In this document: piece after piece, positions 18,907 through 28,018 of the stretch | Numbering within the stretch: the stretch's first letter is position 1 | How the letters are laid out: every line of letters starts with the position of its first letter | IMG/VR virus record: IMGVR_UViG_3300044994_000178 | Location: 1 to 28,018 of that record | DNA length: 28,018 bases | Reading direction: 5' to 3' (one strand) | Origin: a virus | The notes under the pieces: model-generated | What the model was told of the DNA's origin: nothing | Seen by the model: the letters and a program-made list of their open reading frames with translations, nothing else | Database searches by the model: none | Position numbers and translations under genes: made by a program

Positions 18907-19419
18907 ATGCCTGCCAAGAAAGCTGGCGCACTCGTCGACGCCAAGACTTCCACGCAGGTCGAGGTTCCGGGCACAGAAGTGCCGCTCGACCTTCTATCAC
19001 TGCAGGGGCAGCTCGTCGCTGAGCTGGCTGCCGGCCTATCGGACGCCGCAACGATCCGTAAGCGGTACAACATCTCCGCAAAGCAGTGGGAAATGCTGCG
19101 GGAGAACCAGCTGTTCCGATCGATGCTTGCCGACGCACTTCGGAAGTGGCGCGGCGATACGAACGCGTCTCAGCGCATTACGCTCAAAGCCGAGATGGTG
19201 CTCGAAGACGCCATCCCTGCGTACGACAAAATCATCCACGACCCTGAGTCCGGCCCTGCAGCAAAAATCGAAGCAGGCAAGCTTCTGTCGGCACTTGCTG
19301 GACGCAATGCAAAAGAAAGTGCTCCGAGCGGGGCTGGAAGCGGATTCACGCTGAACATCAACATCGGCGACAAAAAGGGCGTCGTGATCGAAGGCAATTC
19401 GGTGTCGTCGAATGAGTAA
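18907..19419 (+). CDS. terS: Terminase small subunit
   Basis: This 170-residue protein begins MPAKKAGALVDAKTSTQVEV. The central segment LSDAATIRKRYNISAKQWEM (about residues 45-64) is helix-turn-helix-like, as in small terminase subunits that recognise the packaging site. A helical oligomerisation-type region follows (RITLKAEMVLEDAIPAYDKI, KIEAGKLLSALAGR), and a Gly/Ser-rich tail with FTLNINIGDKKGV that may contact portal or large subunit. It overlaps the large subunit gene by 8 bases (ATGAGTAA). Length is typical. No ATPase motif, as expected for TerS. Confidence 0.85.
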   Translation: MPAKKAGALVDAKTSTQVEVPGTEVPLDLLSLQGQLVAELAAGLSDAATIRKRYNISAKQWEMLRENQLFRSMLADALRKWRGDTNASQRITLKAEMVLEDAIPAYDKIIHDPESGPAAKIEAGKLLSALAGRNAKESAPSGAGSGFTLNINIGDKKGVVIEGNSVSSNE

Positions 19420-20815
19420 CGTTGTCTCCTACAATGCACCCCCGACAATCTCGCAATTCATGCTCGACGATGAGCACGAAGTTCGACTGATTCTCGGGCC
19501 GTATGGCTCTGGCAAAACAACTGGGTGCATCATGGAGCTTGCCCGTCGCATGTTGGAAGAATATCCAGATGCGAAAGGAGTTCGGCACACGCGTTTCGTA
19601 ATCGTCCGTAACACTGCACAGCAGCTTCGTCAGACCATCCTCGAAGACATCCGCAAGTGGCTGCAGCCTGTGATGCAATACAAGGTCACAGACTCGACCA
19701 TCGTGTTCGACTTCGTACACCCGACTCAAGGACGCATTCGCTCGGACTGGATGATGATCCCGCTCGACAAGCCAGAAGACCAGCAGCGCCTTCTGTCGCT
19801 GAACATCACTGGCGCATGGGTGTCGGAGTTCCGTGAAATCCCAATCTCCACAGTCGAAGCTCTGCTCGGACGCGTCGGCCGTTTCAGACCGCTTGGCGTC
19901 TCGAAAAACAAATGGTGCGGAATCATTGGCGAGTCTAACCCGCCAGACGAAGACAGCGATTGGTTCAAAAAGCTCGAGATCGAGAAACCGCGCAACTGGG
20001 CACTCTACAAACAACCCGGTGGCATGGACCCCAACGCGGAGAACCGTGAAAACCTCCGCGAGAACTACTACGAAAGCCTAATCGAAGCAAACAGTGCCGA
20101 TTGGGTCGACGTTCACGTTCACGCAAAGTACGGGAAGTCACTCTCAGGACAAGCTGTATGGCGCGCAAGTTTCCGCCAAGATTTCCATGTGACCTACAAC
20201 GACGTCAAGCCTATACCGGGACGTCCGTTGATGATTGGTCAAGACTTCGGCCGCACGCCAGCGTCACTGATCGCGCAGATCGACGCGCGTGGGCGTCTTG
20301 TAGTCTTCAGGGAGATCACGACAAAAGACTCCGGCATCGAACAGTTTGCGGTCAGCGACATCAAACCGACACTATTCGCGCACTTTCCGGGATTCTCGAA
20401 CTTCATGATCGGAGACCCATCCGGAGCGTTCAAAAGTCAAATCTCGGAAGAAAGCGCGTTTGACGTTTTGAAGCGTCTTGGGTTCAAGATTTACCCTGCT
20501 CCGACCAACGACATTGATCCACGCCTTCGTGCGGTCGAGCAGCTCTTTCTTCGCCAGATCGACGGTGGGCCAGCAATTCTGATTTGTGGGCATGGATGTC
20601 CGCAACTTGTTCAAGCGCTCAAATTCAACTATCGCTACAGGCGCAAGAAAGATGGAAACCTCGAAGAAGGCCCGGAAAAGACCCACCCATGGTCAGATCT
20701 TGCCGATTGCCTGCAGTACCTTGCGCTTGGAATGACGAACAACTACATCGGCAAGAAACTCGAGCGCGCCACGGTGCAGAGGCGGCCGAAACCATCAGTA
20801 GTCGGATGGACCTAA
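19412..20815 (+). CDS. terL: Terminase large subunit (packaging ATPase-nuclease)
   Basis: This 467-residue protein has a Walker A LGPYGSGKTT at residues 28-37 and a Walker B plus catalytic Glu in GAWVSEFREIP (about 134-144). The RuvC-like nuclease domain shows the expected acidic residues in IGQDFGRTPAS (Asp278), MIGDPSGAF (Asp335) and HPWSDLADCLQYLALG (Asp429/432). TerL pumps DNA through the portal and cuts the concatemer. Length is usual. It follows the small subunit with translational coupling and ends convergently to a glycosyltransferase gene; both stop codons lie within the same CTAA at 20812-20815. No intein or frameshift is seen. Confidence 0.95.
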   Translation: MSNVVSYNAPPTISQFMLDDEHEVRLILGPYGSGKTTGCIMELARRMLEEYPDAKGVRHTRFVIVRNTAQQLRQTILEDIRKWLQPVMQYKVTDSTIVFDFVHPTQGRIRSDWMMIPLDKPEDQQRLLSLNITGAWVSEFREIPISTVEALLGRVGRFRPLGVSKNKWCGIIGESNPPDEDSDWFKKLEIEKPRNWALYKQPGGMDPNAENRENLRENYYESLIEANSADWVDVHVHAKYGKSLSGQAVWRASFRQDFHVTYNDVKPIPGRPLMIGQDFGRTPASLIAQIDARGRLVVFREITTKDSGIEQFAVSDIKPTLFAHFPGFSNFMIGDPSGAFKSQISEESAFDVLKRLGFKIYPAPTNDIDPRLRAVEQLFLRQIDGGPAILICGHGCPQLVQALKFNYRYRRKKDGNLEEGPEKTHPWSDLADCLQYLALGMTNNYIGKKLERATVQRRPKPSVVGWT

Positions 20816-21528
20816 CGATAGTACTCTTCTATCCACGGGCATTTGCGCTTTGCAGACGGCGACCACGGGTCTGTATGCCCATTAAAAAATACGATACGCG
20901 CGTGTTTCGGTAGCATGTAATCGTACTGTCTCAAATCGCACCGATATGACAAAACGCCGTCAGCGCTCGTCCAGCGCGGTTCTCCGGGAAGGATATAACT
21001 GAGCCAAGCCTGATCAGATCCGTGATATCCAGCCCGCTGCGCAAGACGTGGCGACTCGATGGGGTCGAACTCAGTCCAGACTTTCGTGCGCGTACCTGAA
21101 CGAAGAAGCCACATCGAGCCGTTGTACGGGGTAGTCCGAGAAGCATCGCCCCAGAACACTACATCTTCTGGACGATCCCACAACGGCGCACAATCACCTG
21201 TAATGACCGTATCCAAATCAAGTGACAAAAACCGATCGTTCCCGATGATCTCTACAGCTTCAAGCGAAAACAGCTTGAGCCGACGATAGCAGCTCGGATT
21301 GTAAATGCCATGCGGACTGTCTATATGCGCTAAGTCTTTCCAAAGCGGAATTACGCGCACAGCACTGTCCAAATCTTTCCAATTATCAGTAATGCAAATG
21401 AACTCATGCTCGCCCGCGTAGTTACGCGCAACCATGCGCTGTAGCGTATTTACATGGTCTGCACTGAATTGACTGCGGTATTGATGCCGTGGAGTCCATT
21501 TCCAGCAGATCACGCTAAGCTTCGCCAC
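20812..21528 (-). CDS. Glycosyltransferase, GT-A type with DLD motif
   Basis: This 238-residue protein uses a GTG start 21528 preceded by GGAAGAA. It begins with a GT-A-like strand LSVICWKWTPRHQYRSQFSA, followed by NYAGEHEFICITDN. The metal/nucleotide-binding DxD is DLDTVITGD at about residues 99-107, with SLEAVEIIGNDRFLSLD before it. NGSMWLLRSGTRTKVWTEFD is like GT8-type or phage capsid glycosyltransferases. It is the last gene of the accessory operon, overlapping the upstream GT by 14 bases. Donor sugar and acceptor cannot be read. The protein lacks membrane helices, so it should act in the cytoplasm. Confidence 0.8.
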   Translation of the reverse strand: MAKLSVICWKWTPRHQYRSQFSADHVNTLQRMVARNYAGEHEFICITDNWKDLDSAVRVIPLWKDLAHIDSPHGIYNPSCYRRLKLFSLEAVEIIGNDRFLSLDLDTVITGDCAPLWDRPEDVVFWGDASRTTPYNGSMWLLRSGTRTKVWTEFDPIESPRLAQRAGYHGSDQAWLSYILPGEPRWTSADGVLSYRCDLRQYDYMLPKHARIVFFNGHTDPWSPSAKRKCPWIEEYYR

Positions 21529-22321
21529 TAACTTCTTCCTTTATCTTGGGAAAGAAAATCTCTTCGTACTCAACGCGAATCGGATTTACCGAGCGCATGT
21601 CGCCAAGCACGCGCTTGCGGTCAAACGCGGCACGGTATTTCTTTTGCCACTCGTCACGATCCAAGTCCCGTGTATCCGCATCCTCGATGACCGGCTCACC
21701 GTCGCGTTTCCGCCGTCCGTACCCGATAAGCACGACATCGTTCATATGCTCGACAGGCGCAACGATATTTAGCTGACGACGAAACTCGCCGTCGCCACCA
21801 TAACCACCGCCATACCCGCCTGTAAGGTCGAGGTCGTATCCGTTTACCTGCCAGTATGCCGCGTGTTTCACGAGAAACGTATTCGGATGCACCTTGCGCT
21901 CGGTGTAATCTGGAGCAAACACACGCTCGAATGTGTAATGCCGTCCGGGGTCCAGCTTTTTCTCCAGCATCGTCAGCGCCATCTCAGGTGTCATGACGAT
22001 GTCGATGTCGCTCATGAACAGCCACGGATTGTCGCCCTTTTGCCCCGCCTCGAACGCGCCAATGTTGCGACACTGATGCATGTTCCACGGCAGCCGTTTT
22101 TTAACGCGAAAAAGCTGCTTCCGAAGTTTGCAGTCTTTGAGAATGTCGAACGCAGGAGCCTTAGAGCTGCAGTCGTCAACGACGATAAGCTTGATCGCAG
22201 CGCGCAGCCGCCCCGCACACCGGTTCCAATTCTCGACCTGCAAGGCGAGCATGGTTGGGTTCTCGTAGTACGGATAAATCATGCACACCTGTGGCAGCGG
22301 TGTAAGCTCGATCTCGGTCAT
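21515..22321 (-). CDS. Glycosyltransferase family 2-like (galactosyltransferase-type C-terminus)
   Basis: This 268-residue protein starts with an ATGA overlap. It has the GT2 layout: VCMIYPYYENPTMLALQVEN, then LIVVDDCSSKAP (nucleotide-sugar site), NMHQCRNIGAFEAGQKGDNP, the LFMSDIDIVMTPEMAL DxD motif, and a C-terminal NGYDLDLTGGYGGGYGGDGE segment as in galactosyltransferase-C domains, where the D/E residue of GGDGEF is the likely base. These enzymes build polysaccharides or decorate proteins. It is coupled to flanking surface-chemistry genes. Confidence 0.88.
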   Translation of the reverse strand: MTEIELTPLPQVCMIYPYYENPTMLALQVENWNRCAGRLRAAIKLIVVDDCSSKAPAFDILKDCKLRKQLFRVKKRLPWNMHQCRNIGAFEAGQKGDNPWLFMSDIDIVMTPEMALTMLEKKLDPGRHYTFERVFAPDYTERKVHPNTFLVKHAAYWQVNGYDLDLTGGYGGGYGGDGEFRRQLNIVAPVEHMNDVVLIGYGRRKRDGEPVIEDADTRDLDRDEWQKKYRAAFDRKRVLGDMRSVNPIRVEYEEIFFPKIKEEVSGEA

Positions 22322-22929
22322 TTGGACGCCTCAGTGACGAACTGCTGGAATGTCAGGATGGGGAATGACTTGATCGCCGTGCGAGACGAGACGTTGAACA
22401 CTTTTGTCCCCACCTGCTCGAACTGCCGCGCAACAGAGTCGAACTGCGCCGCCCATTCTGCATATTTTCCCGGTTTCGTAGCACCGTCCGCCCGTGCCCA
22501 CGGATAGGGGTCGTGCCAGTACGGCTCTCCTTTAGGGCCTTTGCACATGTCGAAGCCAAACAAGAAAATCTTGTTGGGCCTGCGCTGATACGCGTAACTG
22601 AGCGCACACATGCCGCTGTTCGTACCGTTGAAAGTGACCCCTGTATCGACCATCTTGACCGACTTGTGGTTGCACTCGAACTGCAGGCGGCGAGGATGGT
22701 ACGGCAGGTTTTTGTCGGCCCCACGGCGAACCCACAGGTCTGCACCCGGATGCTTGAGAAAAAAGTCCCGCGCACGATGCTCGGCCCAGAGCCTGTCCAT
22801 CGTGATGCCGACATTGACTTGGCACAGGACAGCCGACTCGTTCACGCCCACCACCCAGCCGTATTCGCGAAAGTCGACGTCAGCGAACTCCTTGAAGCTC
22901 CAACCGCCGCCGATCACGATCACCCTCAT
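22318..22929 (-). CDS. DUF115/GT42-like protein (putative glycosyltransferase)
   Basis: This 203-residue protein with ATGA couplings at both ends begins MRVIVIGGGWSFKEFADVDF, a Rossmann-like start with a Gly-rich turn. Later segments are FNGTNSGMCALSYAYQRRPN and KIFLFGFDMCKGP, then a His/Trp-rich stretch, and KVFNVSSRTAIKSFP at the end. The order (GxGxS near the start, NSG, then a KIFLFGFD strand, then NxSxxSxI/KxFP) resembles DUF115 and GT42 sialyltransferase-like proteins found in surface-glycan loci. Similarity is by pattern only, so the substrate is unknown. Confidence 0.65.
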   Translation of the reverse strand: MRVIVIGGGWSFKEFADVDFREYGWVVGVNESAVLCQVNVGITMDRLWAEHRARDFFLKHPGADLWVRRGADKNLPYHPRRLQFECNHKSVKMVDTGVTFNGTNSGMCALSYAYQRRPNKIFLFGFDMCKGPKGEPYWHDPYPWARADGATKPGKYAEWAAQFDSVARQFEQVGTKVFNVSSRTAIKSFPILTFQQFVTEASK

Positions 22930-23477
22930 GGAGCCTCACCCGCAACAACAAGACGTCCGCGTTTCTCGAGAACGCGCCATCTCCACTCTGAAAAAGTATG
23001 CTCCAGTTTCTCGAGCCACCACATGGGCGGCTTTACCGTGATGTGCGTATTGCGCCCATCCGGAAGCGAGGACTTGCTCAAATTGCAGTCGATGTTGAAA
23101 AACGCCCCGTAAAGCGCCCGATCGCGGATGACGTGCAGAGTCTCGTCGACAAACTGTTCCTCGACATGCTCCATCACGTCGGTGCAAACGACGTAGTCGA
23201 CCTGCGCATTGAGCAACTCGTCCTTCCCGCGCACGCCGGGGTCGTACTCAAAGATCGTAATCCCCGGCACCACCTCTTCCATTTTCGTCTTGAACGTGCC
23301 ACGCCCGCAGCCGAAGTCGAGTATCGTCTTGATCTCGCAGTTCTTGCTGGCGCACAACCTCGACAACTCATCGAGCACGTACGGTACCCAAGAGTGCCCG
23401 GTGCCGCCCCACGGCCGCTTGTCATGTTTCTCCGTGAGGAGTTTCTTGTAGCCGATCGAGATCAACCTCGAGTCCAT
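22926..23477 (-). CDS. Class I SAM-dependent methyltransferase
   Basis: This 183-residue protein's start is the ATG at 23477 (MDSRLISIGYKKLL), with GTGAGG upstream; the in-frame ATG 25 codons further up lies inside the neighbouring methyltransferase frame and has no such site. Motif I is TILDFGCGRGTFKTKMEE (about residues 50-67), followed by ITIFEYDPGV (motif II acidic) and VDYVVCTDVMEHVEEQFVDE (motif IV/post-IV). This is the small Methyltransf_11/23 architecture used for small molecules, sugars and lipids rather than DNA base methylases. No target-recognition domain or DPPY/PCQ motif is visible. It overlaps the neighbour by 16 bases. Confidence 0.85.
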   Translation of the reverse strand: MDSRLISIGYKKLLTEKHDKRPWGGTGHSWVPYVLDELSRLCASKNCEIKTILDFGCGRGTFKTKMEEVVPGITIFEYDPGVRGKDELLNAQVDYVVCTDVMEHVEEQFVDETLHVIRDRALYGAFFNIDCNLSKSSLPDGRNTHITVKPPMWWLEKLEHTFSEWRWRVLEKRGRLVVAGEAP

Positions 23478-24064
23478 CTGAGCCTCACGTGTTTTTTGCC
23501 GCGCTCGAGCAAGACGGGTTTGCCAAGCAGTCCGCACAACTGCTCGAGCCACAGTGGTTTCGTCGCCCGCACGTCGAAGATGAATACCGTGCCCGGATGA
23601 CTCATCTCCGTCAAGATGTCGAAGTAAGTGGTTGGGGGGATGTGAAAGCAGTAAGCCGCAAAGCTCACGATCAAGTCGTACTGCACGGCTGGATAGGGGC
23701 GCGGATAGTACACATGCGCATTCTGCACCCCGTTTGCCGCCAAGAAGTCGAGTGTGACACTTGCGTTGTTGAACGTCGAAGCGTGCGACCTTACGACTGG
23801 TGGGTCTTCCAACCCATCAAGAATGTGCACGCTAGGAGCACTGTAAAGGCGACTAAGGAGTATATCGACACCACCAAGACCGCCACCAATATCAAGCATA
23901 GCCTGACAATGAGCCGGAAGATGTGGTCGAACATTCTCGACAATCCCCCCAATAGACTCCGCATATGCACGCTCCCACGCTTTACGGTCGTGCCTGTGAT
24001 CCGAGATCTCGCCCCTTTGGATGGAAAGATACTCGAAGTGCTCGTCGTTGATGACGAAACTCAT
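23462..24064 (-). CDS. Putative SAM-dependent (sugar-type) methyltransferase
   Basis: This 200-residue protein begins MSFVINDEHFEYLSIQRGEI; the ATGA overlap with the glycosyltransferase fixes the start. Motif I, MLDIGGGLGGVDILLSRLY (about 55-73), has the DxGGGxGG glycine loop, followed by SVHILDGLEDPPV and a YDLIVSFAAYCFHIPPTTYF segment, as in class I methyltransferases of surface-polysaccharide clusters. A C-terminal basic end (RGKKHVRLRWTRG) follows. It probably methylates a sugar or intermediate made by its neighbours. That target is inferred from context only. Confidence 0.78.
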   Translation of the reverse strand: MSFVINDEHFEYLSIQRGEISDHRHDRKAWERAYAESIGGIVENVRPHLPAHCQAMLDIGGGLGGVDILLSRLYSAPSVHILDGLEDPPVVRSHASTFNNASVTLDFLAANGVQNAHVYYPRPYPAVQYDLIVSFAAYCFHIPPTTYFDILTEMSHPGTVFIFDVRATKPLWLEQLCGLLGKPVLLERGKKHVRLRWTRG

Positions 24065-25885: not shown

Positions 25886-25900
25886 CCACACAGTGTGTGG
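25886..25900. promoter_or_regulatory. Operator-like palindrome, copy 1
   Basis: CCACACA-G-TGTGTGG is a perfect 7-bp inverted repeat around one central base, upstream of the first plus-strand gene of the right block. Three related copies follow at 26987, 27494 and 27523. The central base is G here and C in the others. Confidence 0.7.
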
Positions 25901-27001: not shown

Positions 27002-27006
27002 AACAA

Positions 27007-27038
27007 AGCCCCGATCCGCAGGGATCGGGGCTTTTTTT
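27007..27038 (+). terminator. Strong rho-independent terminator
   Basis: An 11-bp stem, AGCCCCGATCC with GGATCGGGGCT (27007-27017 and 27022-27032), and a GCAG loop are followed by a run of seven T (27032-27038, the first also closing the stem). It ends the two-gene plus-strand unit. Confidence 0.92.
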
Positions 27039-27078
27039 AGGCCGTCATGAGCCAAAACCGCCAAAATTTTTGCCATGC

Positions 27079-27151
27079 GAAACTTTGAAAGTAAGACCTC
27101 AACTAAATCGAGTTTTGGCGCAGGAAACTTTGAAAGATTGAGTTTTCGCGC
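27079..27151. repeat. Composite tandem repeat
   Basis: GAAACTTTGAAAG at 27079-27091 and again at 27124-27136 is each followed by a related 15-mer: ATCGAGTTTTGGCGC (27107-27121) and ATTGAGTTTTCGCGC (27137-27151). The second copy has lost the 15-base spacer of the first. Confidence 0.85.
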
Positions 27152-27208
27152 GAAAAAGCGTGATAACGGCGCATAAGTGGGGGCGCAATGGTGCAGGGAT
27201 GGGGCGGT

Positions 27209-27251
27209 CATTGCCAGCGCGGCCGTAAACGGACACACCGATTGGCAATGA
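27209..27251. repeat. Inverted pair 1 of TTGGYAATGA
   Basis: TCATTGCCA (27209-27217) and TGGCAATGA (27243-27251) are perfect inverse copies, separated by 25 bases. Confidence 0.85.
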
Positions 27252-27283
27252 GGGAAGGCTTTATTACTAGTACTTTATAGATA

Positions 27284-27414
27284 TACTACATCATATCATC
27301 ATTACCAACCATATGCTCCCCCTACGCGATTTTCGCAAAAAGACCCTTCGGGACCCAAAATCCCCCAACCCTTGTATGGGGCTCTACCTTTGGCAATGAT
27401 GATATGATGCAGTA
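27284..27414. repeat. Inverted pair 2: 25-nt near-perfect inverted repeat
   Basis: Arms 27284-27308 and 27390-27414 are inverse copies over 25 bases with only two mismatches (both A/G), sharing the core CATCATATCATCATT followed by RCCAA. The 81-base spacer holds a CCC-TTC-GGG mini-hairpin. This is the longest inverted repeat seen in the window. Confidence 0.9.
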
Positions 27415-27443
27415 AGACTCGGAAACACTATGCCCGCTAGCGT

Positions 27444-27493
27444 GGATCATTACCAATCTAGGTTCCACATTTTTCCAACTTTGGCAATGATCC
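27444..27493. repeat. Inverted pair 3 of TTGGYAATGA
   Basis: GGATCATTACCAA (27444-27456) and TTGGCAATGATCC (27481-27493) are inverse copies with one mismatch. The second arm abuts operator-like palindrome copy 3. Confidence 0.85.
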
Positions 27494-27508
27494 CCACACA
27501 CTGTGTGG
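27494..27508. promoter_or_regulatory. Operator-like palindrome, copy 3
   Basis: CCACACA-C-TGTGTGG directly follows the inverted pair 3 arm, 48 bases before the ATG of the right-edge gene. Confidence 0.65.
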
Positions 27509-27555: not shown

Positions 27556-28018
27556 ATGACACACTCTCGCCTGCCGAATGTTGCCTACGGCACTGCCCAT
27601 TGCGCCGCTCCGCGCCTGCGCCTGACGCTGCGCCAGACTGCGGCCATCTACCAAGCCCTCCGTGCCTACCGTCAGGCCGTGCGCAATCAGAACTCGTTGG
27701 AACACCGCCGCGTGGCGCGCGCCCTGACGCGCATCCTCCGGCGCCTGAAGCAGACCGCACCCCTCGACCCCTGCCACCCCCCACCCCGGCACCAGCGGTT
27801 CTACCTCGACCTCGAAAACCCGGACACGGACTGGCCCCTATTGTCGCGTGCGCTGCGCCCGCTCGGCAGCAATGGGTTCCTACCAGGATCGCGCGAAGCC
27901 CGCTGGTATGCCGTATACGGGGCTTTGACGCGACGTGGCTGCCGCCGTCTGGCCACCGATGCCAGCATTGCCCGTGCCGAGGCGCGCGCCCGTGCCGCCC
28001 GACGGCGCAATCGGCAAG
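27556..28018 (+). CDS. Arg/Ala-rich protein, unknown (3' end beyond window)
   Basis: An open frame from ATG 27556 (MTHSRLPNVAYGTAHCAAPR) runs through 154 codons without a stop to the right edge. GGAG is placed six bases upstream. It is Arg- and Ala-rich, helical, and visibly more GC-rich in third positions than most genes to its left, with segments LRLTLRQTAAIYQALRAYRQ, RRVARALTRILRRLKQTA and a basic C-terminal run (RAEARARAARRRNRQ). No named domain is recognised. The repeat-dense upstream region and two palindromes suggest tight regulation. The high GC and Arg content may reflect transfer from another source. Confidence 0.7.
   Translation, partial: MTHSRLPNVAYGTAHCAAPRLRLTLRQTAAIYQALRAYRQAVRNQNSLEHRRVARALTRILRRLKQTAPLDPCHPPPRHQRFYLDLENPDTDWPLLSRALRPLGSNGFLPGSREARWYAVYGALTRRGCRRLATDASIARAEARARAARRRNRQ

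Follow-up and report, generated by a model that had tools for sequence, protein, structure and literature searches.

The window analysed here, a 28,018-base IMG/VR record whose positions serve as coordinates throughout, is a 28-kb fragment of a podovirus genome of roughly 60 kb. Its late genes lie on the minus strand and its terminase gene (19412-20815) on the plus strand; between the terminase and the control region (20812-23552) we find minus-strand genes for a glycosyltransferase, a sialyltransferase-like protein and a methyltransferase. The portal protein shares about 50% identity with its counterpart in the syntenic Rhizobium phage RHph_TM3_14A, and two overlapping or related records extend the window: G001, which is identical over the aligned region, and G002 (40.9 kb). 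Near the right end of the window, the plus-strand gene P0001 (26412-26984), encoding an orphan all-helical protein, is followed by an intrinsic terminator on the same strand (27002-27037), which insulates the downstream region from that gene. The first gene of a rightward early operon (27556-28018, plus strand) runs off the window and has an in-frame ATG at 27430 as an alternative start, while the nearest gene on the left side is convergent, not divergent. In G002 the early operon continues rightward with genes for PolA, a RecB-like nuclease, a VRR-type nuclease, an SNF2 helicase and a primase/DUF927 helicase of 964 residues. Pfam matches confirm the identities of PolA and DUF927, and PHROGs that of the primase/helicase; for the RecB-like, VRR and SNF2 proteins the names rely on a reading of the sequences and on how the syntenic RHph_TM3_14A genes are annotated. 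A homologue of the primase/DUF927 helicase (31% aligned identity) is found at 42239-45322 of MN988472.1 (L020 11239-14322) under the annotation 'putative integrase', by its sequence probably a misannotation.

The stretch between the terminator and the early operon holds six copies of the element TTGGYAATGA, here called boxes A to F, which together span 27208-27490 (283 bp). Five of them are exact, namely B (27242-27251, plus strand, TTGGCAATGA), C (27299-27308, minus, TTGGTAATGA), D (27390-27399, plus, TTGGCAATGA), E (27447-27456, minus, TTGGTAATGA) and F (27481-27490, plus, TTGGCAATGA), and box A (27208-27217, minus, CTGGCAATGA) carries a single mismatch. A preliminary description of this DNA had already listed six elements in alternating orientation, which we confirm as -,+,-,+,-,+, with the first start moved from 27209 to 27208. 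If one mismatch is allowed, the window contains ten matches against 2.58 expected, a count that none of 100 shuffles reaches; six of these ten, and all five exact copies, lie at the array locus.

The start-to-start spacings of the boxes (34-57-91-57-34) form an exact mirror. All three pairs are centred on 27349, with A and F at -136.5 and +136.5, B and E at -102.5 and +102.5 and the inner pair C and D at -45.5 and +45.5, a symmetry that goes beyond the preliminary description. Its statement that the central pair extends to 25 bases with two mismatches holds: the inner arms (27284-27308, minus, and 27390-27414, plus) are 92% complementary. Besides box C the left arm holds a reverse TATGAT (27290-27295), and besides box D the right arm holds TATGAT (27403-27408). 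The central spacer between them measures 81 bp (27309-27389); in the relative G004 the inner boxes stand 11 bp further apart. About the centre, 27 of 30 box positions pair, as do 45 of 111 other positions, and the excess among the latter is the inner-arm extension. Outside the boxes and this extension, pairing between the halves stays at chance level, so the array is not just what remains of a long inverted duplication after decay. When separated inverted segments about one centre are summed into a symmetry score, the array reaches 39; the highest value among 60 dinucleotide shuffles of the region is 19, and the next-best place in a scan of the whole window scores 20. Between boxes B and C a stretch of 80% A/T (27260-27299) stands out in the GC-rich genome, and several relatives are, by inspection, AT-rich at the matching place. 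Judged by its composition, it is a candidate DNA unwinding element and/or promoter, and as a putative unwinding element it looks the same as a promoter -10 region. An Rfam search of the window gave no match.

Several other motifs lie close by. The palindrome CACACACTGTGTG occupies 27495-27507, with further copies at 25887, 26988 and 27523; it begins 4 nt past box F, so that the third pair of boxes, described earlier as abutting it, very nearly does. Copies of this palindrome (CACACACTGTGTG or CACACCTGTGTG) recur intergenically and inside reading frames, and they are a phage-wide dispersed system separate from the boxes. The identical relative carries five tandem copies spaced 20 bp apart, G002 two at that place; copies are also recorded at L003 3547-3638 and L004 3549-3579, and the corresponding region of relatives holds different palindromes (TTCACACGTACGTGTGAA, TTACACAGCTGTGTAA, TTACAAGCCTTGTAA and TTGCTAGCCTAGCAA). 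To the left of the boxes, block U (27158-27174, plus strand, GCGTGATAACGGCGCAT) has a similar motif near GTTATCATCRGCGC at the same side of the boxes in relatives, which by eye seems to vary less than the boxes do. Further left, at 27068-27136, GAAACTTTGAAAG occurs twice in direct orientation with 45 bp between the copies; the corresponding place in G004 has different, palindromic repeats of the TTGTTT type.

For comparison we searched IMG/VR by primase alignment, which gave 79 loci, and took 18 genomes from two primase searches, whole or in part, together with the annotated phages RHph_TM3_14A and Rollin. The array has a fixed syntenic place, after the small helical-protein gene and its terminator and ahead of the early operon. 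When whole genomes are scanned for symmetric centres with no regard to gene content, the top centre falls at this very place in the window, G002, G004 (74% DNA identity), G008, G016 and RH. The centres of G008 and G016 differ in sequence from that of the window, and RH has a modest score of 26 and no recognisable repeated box. Indeed, the box word changes with the lineage: TTGGYAATGA, CATGATRGACG, GACNGTT and CTATAAA are all found, with GACNGTT in G016, CTATAAA or CTAYAAA in G015 and G019, GATRGACG in G009 and ATGATAGA in G011. Clusters of such lineage-specific words occupy the matching place in G015, G019, G009, G011 and G012, and in G015 all nine CTATAAA copies lie at the array locus. Repeated 8-mers exceed shuffled controls (0/200) in the window, G009, G011, G016, G015 and G019 and weakly so in G012 (0.04); G004, G008 and G013 show no such excess. 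At the matching place of distant relatives (about 30% primase identity), G020 and G025 are negative and RH and G026 not significant. The search of related phages proposed in the preliminary description thus recovers the arrangement among close relatives, and somewhat more remote ones carry it with a different box sequence. Every record with a confirmed array is a metagenomic assembly and none is an isolate. The phage collection holds no DNA relatives over the array region, and the only match of the longer relative sequence to that collection is an 88-base stretch of phage Lana. In a scan of IMG/VR for the convergent pair TTGGYAATGA-N32..62-TCATTRCCAA, the two relatives already known were joined by 22 records whose pairs stand isolated, with no array around them, which is consistent with chance.

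The words differ, but a similar order, A(-)B(+)C(-)|D(+)E(-)F(+), recurs in several lineages, with distances from the centre of roughly ±140, ±105 and ±50. G004 retains A, C, D and F at -143, -51, 51 and 143 (spacings 92/102/92, against 91/91/91 in the window), with B and E degenerate. In G016 the GACNGTT boxes stand in the left half at -138.5 (minus), -110.5 and -98.5 (plus) and -61.5 and -53.5 (minus), with an extra minus box at -156.5, and in the right half at 53.5 and 61.5 (plus), 98.5 and 128.5 (minus) and 137.5 (plus). G019 has boxes at -147 (minus), -107 and -79 (plus), -52 (minus), 55 (plus) and 129 (minus), and further ones at 201 and 234, beyond the range tested; in G009 they lie at -114.5 (plus), -59.5 (minus), 59.5 (plus), 94.5 (minus) and 123.5 (plus), and in G011 at -116.5 (plus), -56.5 (minus), 57.5 (plus) and 95.5 (minus). 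We compared these arrangements with the template of the window in a Monte Carlo test against randomly placed boxes, with shifts and a global strand flip permitted. The resulting P values are 0.0007 for G016, 0.006 for G019, 0.009 for G009, 0.048 for G015 and 0.057 for G011, and they are optimistic, as the motifs and centres of the relatives were picked after inspecting the regions; also, G015 and G019 are closely related. With the motifs used, G004 (P = 0.21), G008 (0.22) and G012 (0.45) are not significant. Taken together, the sequence comparison supports the shared layout well in the group of the window and in G016; G009, G011 and G015/G019 support it too, and G008 and G012 do no more than suggest it.

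Two further arguments from spacing and conservation were dropped. Helical phasing would account for the step from 91 to 102 (+11) between the window and G004 only, as other lineages reach about 127. The low divergence between the window and G002 does not indicate constraint on the array, since the neighbouring P0002 is equally similar: the two differ by 15% in P0001, 7.6% in the terminator stretch, 2.1% at the dyad and 1.8% in the next gene. The divergence falls from 8-15% to about 2% near 27225 and stays low through the next gene, a profile that suggests a recent recombination breakpoint there.

The boxes are alike within a genome and nearly confined to one locus, and their word changes between lineages. 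From this combination we infer that a single sequence-specific, trans-acting DNA-binding protein would read all boxes of a genome and change together with them, under a constrained nucleoprotein layout. The array is probably the landing platform of a fast-evolving viral DNA-binding protein, and it is unlikely that the box binder acts as a genome-wide regulator. P0001 appears to be the best candidate for this protein, because its gene is linked to the array and changes rapidly; the primase-helicase would be the alternative. A gene of the P0001 family lies directly upstream in six relatives where it can be aligned, with 45% protein identity between the window and G004 and about 20-25% to the others. 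The protein is predicted to be all-helical (pLDDT 80.8, from a three-sequence alignment). Neither Pfam, PHROGs nor fold comparison gave the family a significant match that names a function, and no DNA-binding fold is recognisable in P0001; its best Foldseek hit, a sigma factor, has an E value of 0.73 and its best VIA-align Z score is 5.3, and the weak likeness to sigma factors and TetR was not taken as evidence. The search used found no relatives of P0001 among the genome contigs, nor did a search of the phage collection with three family members. Within the family a K-G pair is conserved, and several members share TWHxxxxLAR.

What might such a protein do at this place? The preliminary description had offered iterons or a replication origin, or the dimeric operators of a second regulator. 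The array falls outside the iteron class, because strict iterons are direct repeats at regular spacing and the boxes alternate in mirror symmetry. Of the rest, the comparison supports a site for a dedicated DNA-binding protein that co-evolves with its boxes, distinct from the palindrome system, and both origin and operators survive as options. We regard the array as a multi-box nucleoprotein assembly site and probably an origin; that it is the phage's replication origin with the early promoter embedded in it is, as we read the sequence data, about an even bet. In this model, the six boxes around the spacer of about 80 bp would form a mirror-symmetric assembly site for one phage-encoded protein. 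On binding the boxes, this protein, possibly P0001, would wrap the two halves or pair them, and would melt the AT-rich stretch beside box C, whereupon the DUF927 primase-helicase and the PolA-type polymerase could be loaded, perhaps in both directions. Since the region or its immediate surroundings must contain the early promoter, binding would also couple replication to early transcription. Occupation of all boxes by one protein, its identity as P0001, the melting and the start of replication here are all putative steps.

Several features argue for an origin. Repeated boxes sit at a single locus far above chance, with initiator binding putative; the AT-rich element adjoins them; the symmetry comes with no sign of a left promoter; and the replication operon lies next door. 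The phage would need an origin of its own, since that operon encodes PolA, nucleases, an SNF2 helicase and the primase/DUF927 helicase. Against this stand the distant relatives, which show no detectable array at the matching place, and an ambiguous GC skew. The skew check suggested in the preliminary description does place the cumulative minimum near the array, -3.3 to +0.9 kb from the dyad in six near-complete relatives, but gene directions diverge at the same point. Third-codon GC skew, tried as a test free of transcription, was inconsistent across relatives for genes oriented against their arm (TerL, P0001). More tentatively, and with rather less than even confidence, we propose that the origin of this podovirus family is defined by layout and not by sequence, so that order, orientation and approximate spacing would be kept while the words are replaced, co-evolving with an adjacent initiator of the P0001 family. 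The array then directs attention to an uncharacterised protein family that probably supplies the initiator, and the persistence of order and spacing under changing words would offer natural material on how initiators and the specificity of their sites change together.

The strongest competitor to the origin is an operator array with no role in replication, in which a regulator would control the early rightward and possibly a leftward promoter through cooperative binding and looping; we consider this a serious possibility, though well short of an even chance. The terminator just upstream of the array places the promoter of the early operon in or beside the region, and promoter-like hexamers do occur in or beside the inner arms: TATACT (27282-27287) is the top promoter-like match in the window, with similar ones in G008, G012 and G013, and TATGAT is found in the inner arms of the window, G004 and G008. 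Regulators and their operators also often co-evolve as neighbours. However, no sigma-70 promoter passes a consensus scan, which leaves only weak sigma-70-like matches, and these are not found at consistent mirrored positions across lineages, so that a second promoter does not by itself explain the left half; for the same reason we discarded divergent promoters starting from TATGAT in both inner arms. Moreover, the leftward first gene is convergent, the dispersed palindromes already resemble the operator set of the phage, and the boxes, instead of recurring at several promoters (which is not required of every repressor), are nearly confined to the array. Origin and operator functions may coexist, and even a pure operator array would still pinpoint the early control switch of this phage group.

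Other readings have much less in their favour. Sites for packaging initiation (pac), partition and recombination also bear inverted, symmetric protein boxes at one locus, and the array could be a DNA-processing site of this kind (pac, centromere-like or recombinase-bound); we consider this improbable, since the terminase gene is about 6.4 kb away, no recombinase was seen among the examined genes of the window and G002 (some small genes were left out) and the conserved position heads the early operon. Least probable of all, though only slightly below the DNA-processing site, is a relic of an inverted duplication or small mobile element, or a hairpin of the early leader RNA, without box-specific protein binding: the inner arms could form a long RNA stem (ViennaRNA, -43 kcal/mol for 27284-27414) and the outer left pair has co-changed between G015 and G019 (TTTATAG/CTATAAA to TTTGTAG/CTACAAA), but the remainder of the halves pairs at chance, other lineages keep a similar layout with unrelated box letters, and wherever an early transcript is likely to start, boxes A and B are upstream of that point. 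The probability left beyond these four readings belongs to explanations we did not foresee.

In the literature searched, no origin is described for phages with PolA and a DUF927 primase-helicase. The origin of the P4 type has boxes in both orientations and a multidomain primase-helicase, alpha, that could read them, and the array resembles it in both respects. P4, however, uses two separate sites, ori and crr, whereas here there is one mirror cluster, in G002 about 20 kb from the primase-helicase gene. In the herpesvirus oriS and in SV40, inverted initiator sites flank a short spacer, with AT-rich DNA to be melted. Inverted sites around a spacer and AT-rich DNA are shared with the array; the proteins are unrelated, the array has six boxes over 283 bp, and its AT-rich stretch lies in one half and not at the centre. 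The nearest described analogues, as far as the available text of the two sources extends, may be the PLE satellite origin (PMC7145576) and oriL/oriR of phage SPP1 (PMC6316719). In the former, non-coding repeats are bound by an element-encoded RepA_N initiator and are essential for replication; the array likewise consists of repeats in a non-coding region, but PLE has semi-palindromic direct iterons, whereas the boxes here are mirrored and a Pfam search of P0001 and other early proteins gave no RepA_N-type match. As the available text has it, SPP1 differs in that its sites are direct repeats, while the boxes here alternate in mirror symmetry, and in using a DnaB-type helicase with a loader in place of a DUF927 primase-helicase (PMC6316719). 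At oriL/oriR, repeated sites for the phage initiator gp38 lie beside an AT-rich unwinding element, with the initiator gene near one of the origins, and the array would match this plan in its repeated boxes, the AT-rich stretch beside them and the adjoining gene of a candidate binding protein (PMC6316719).
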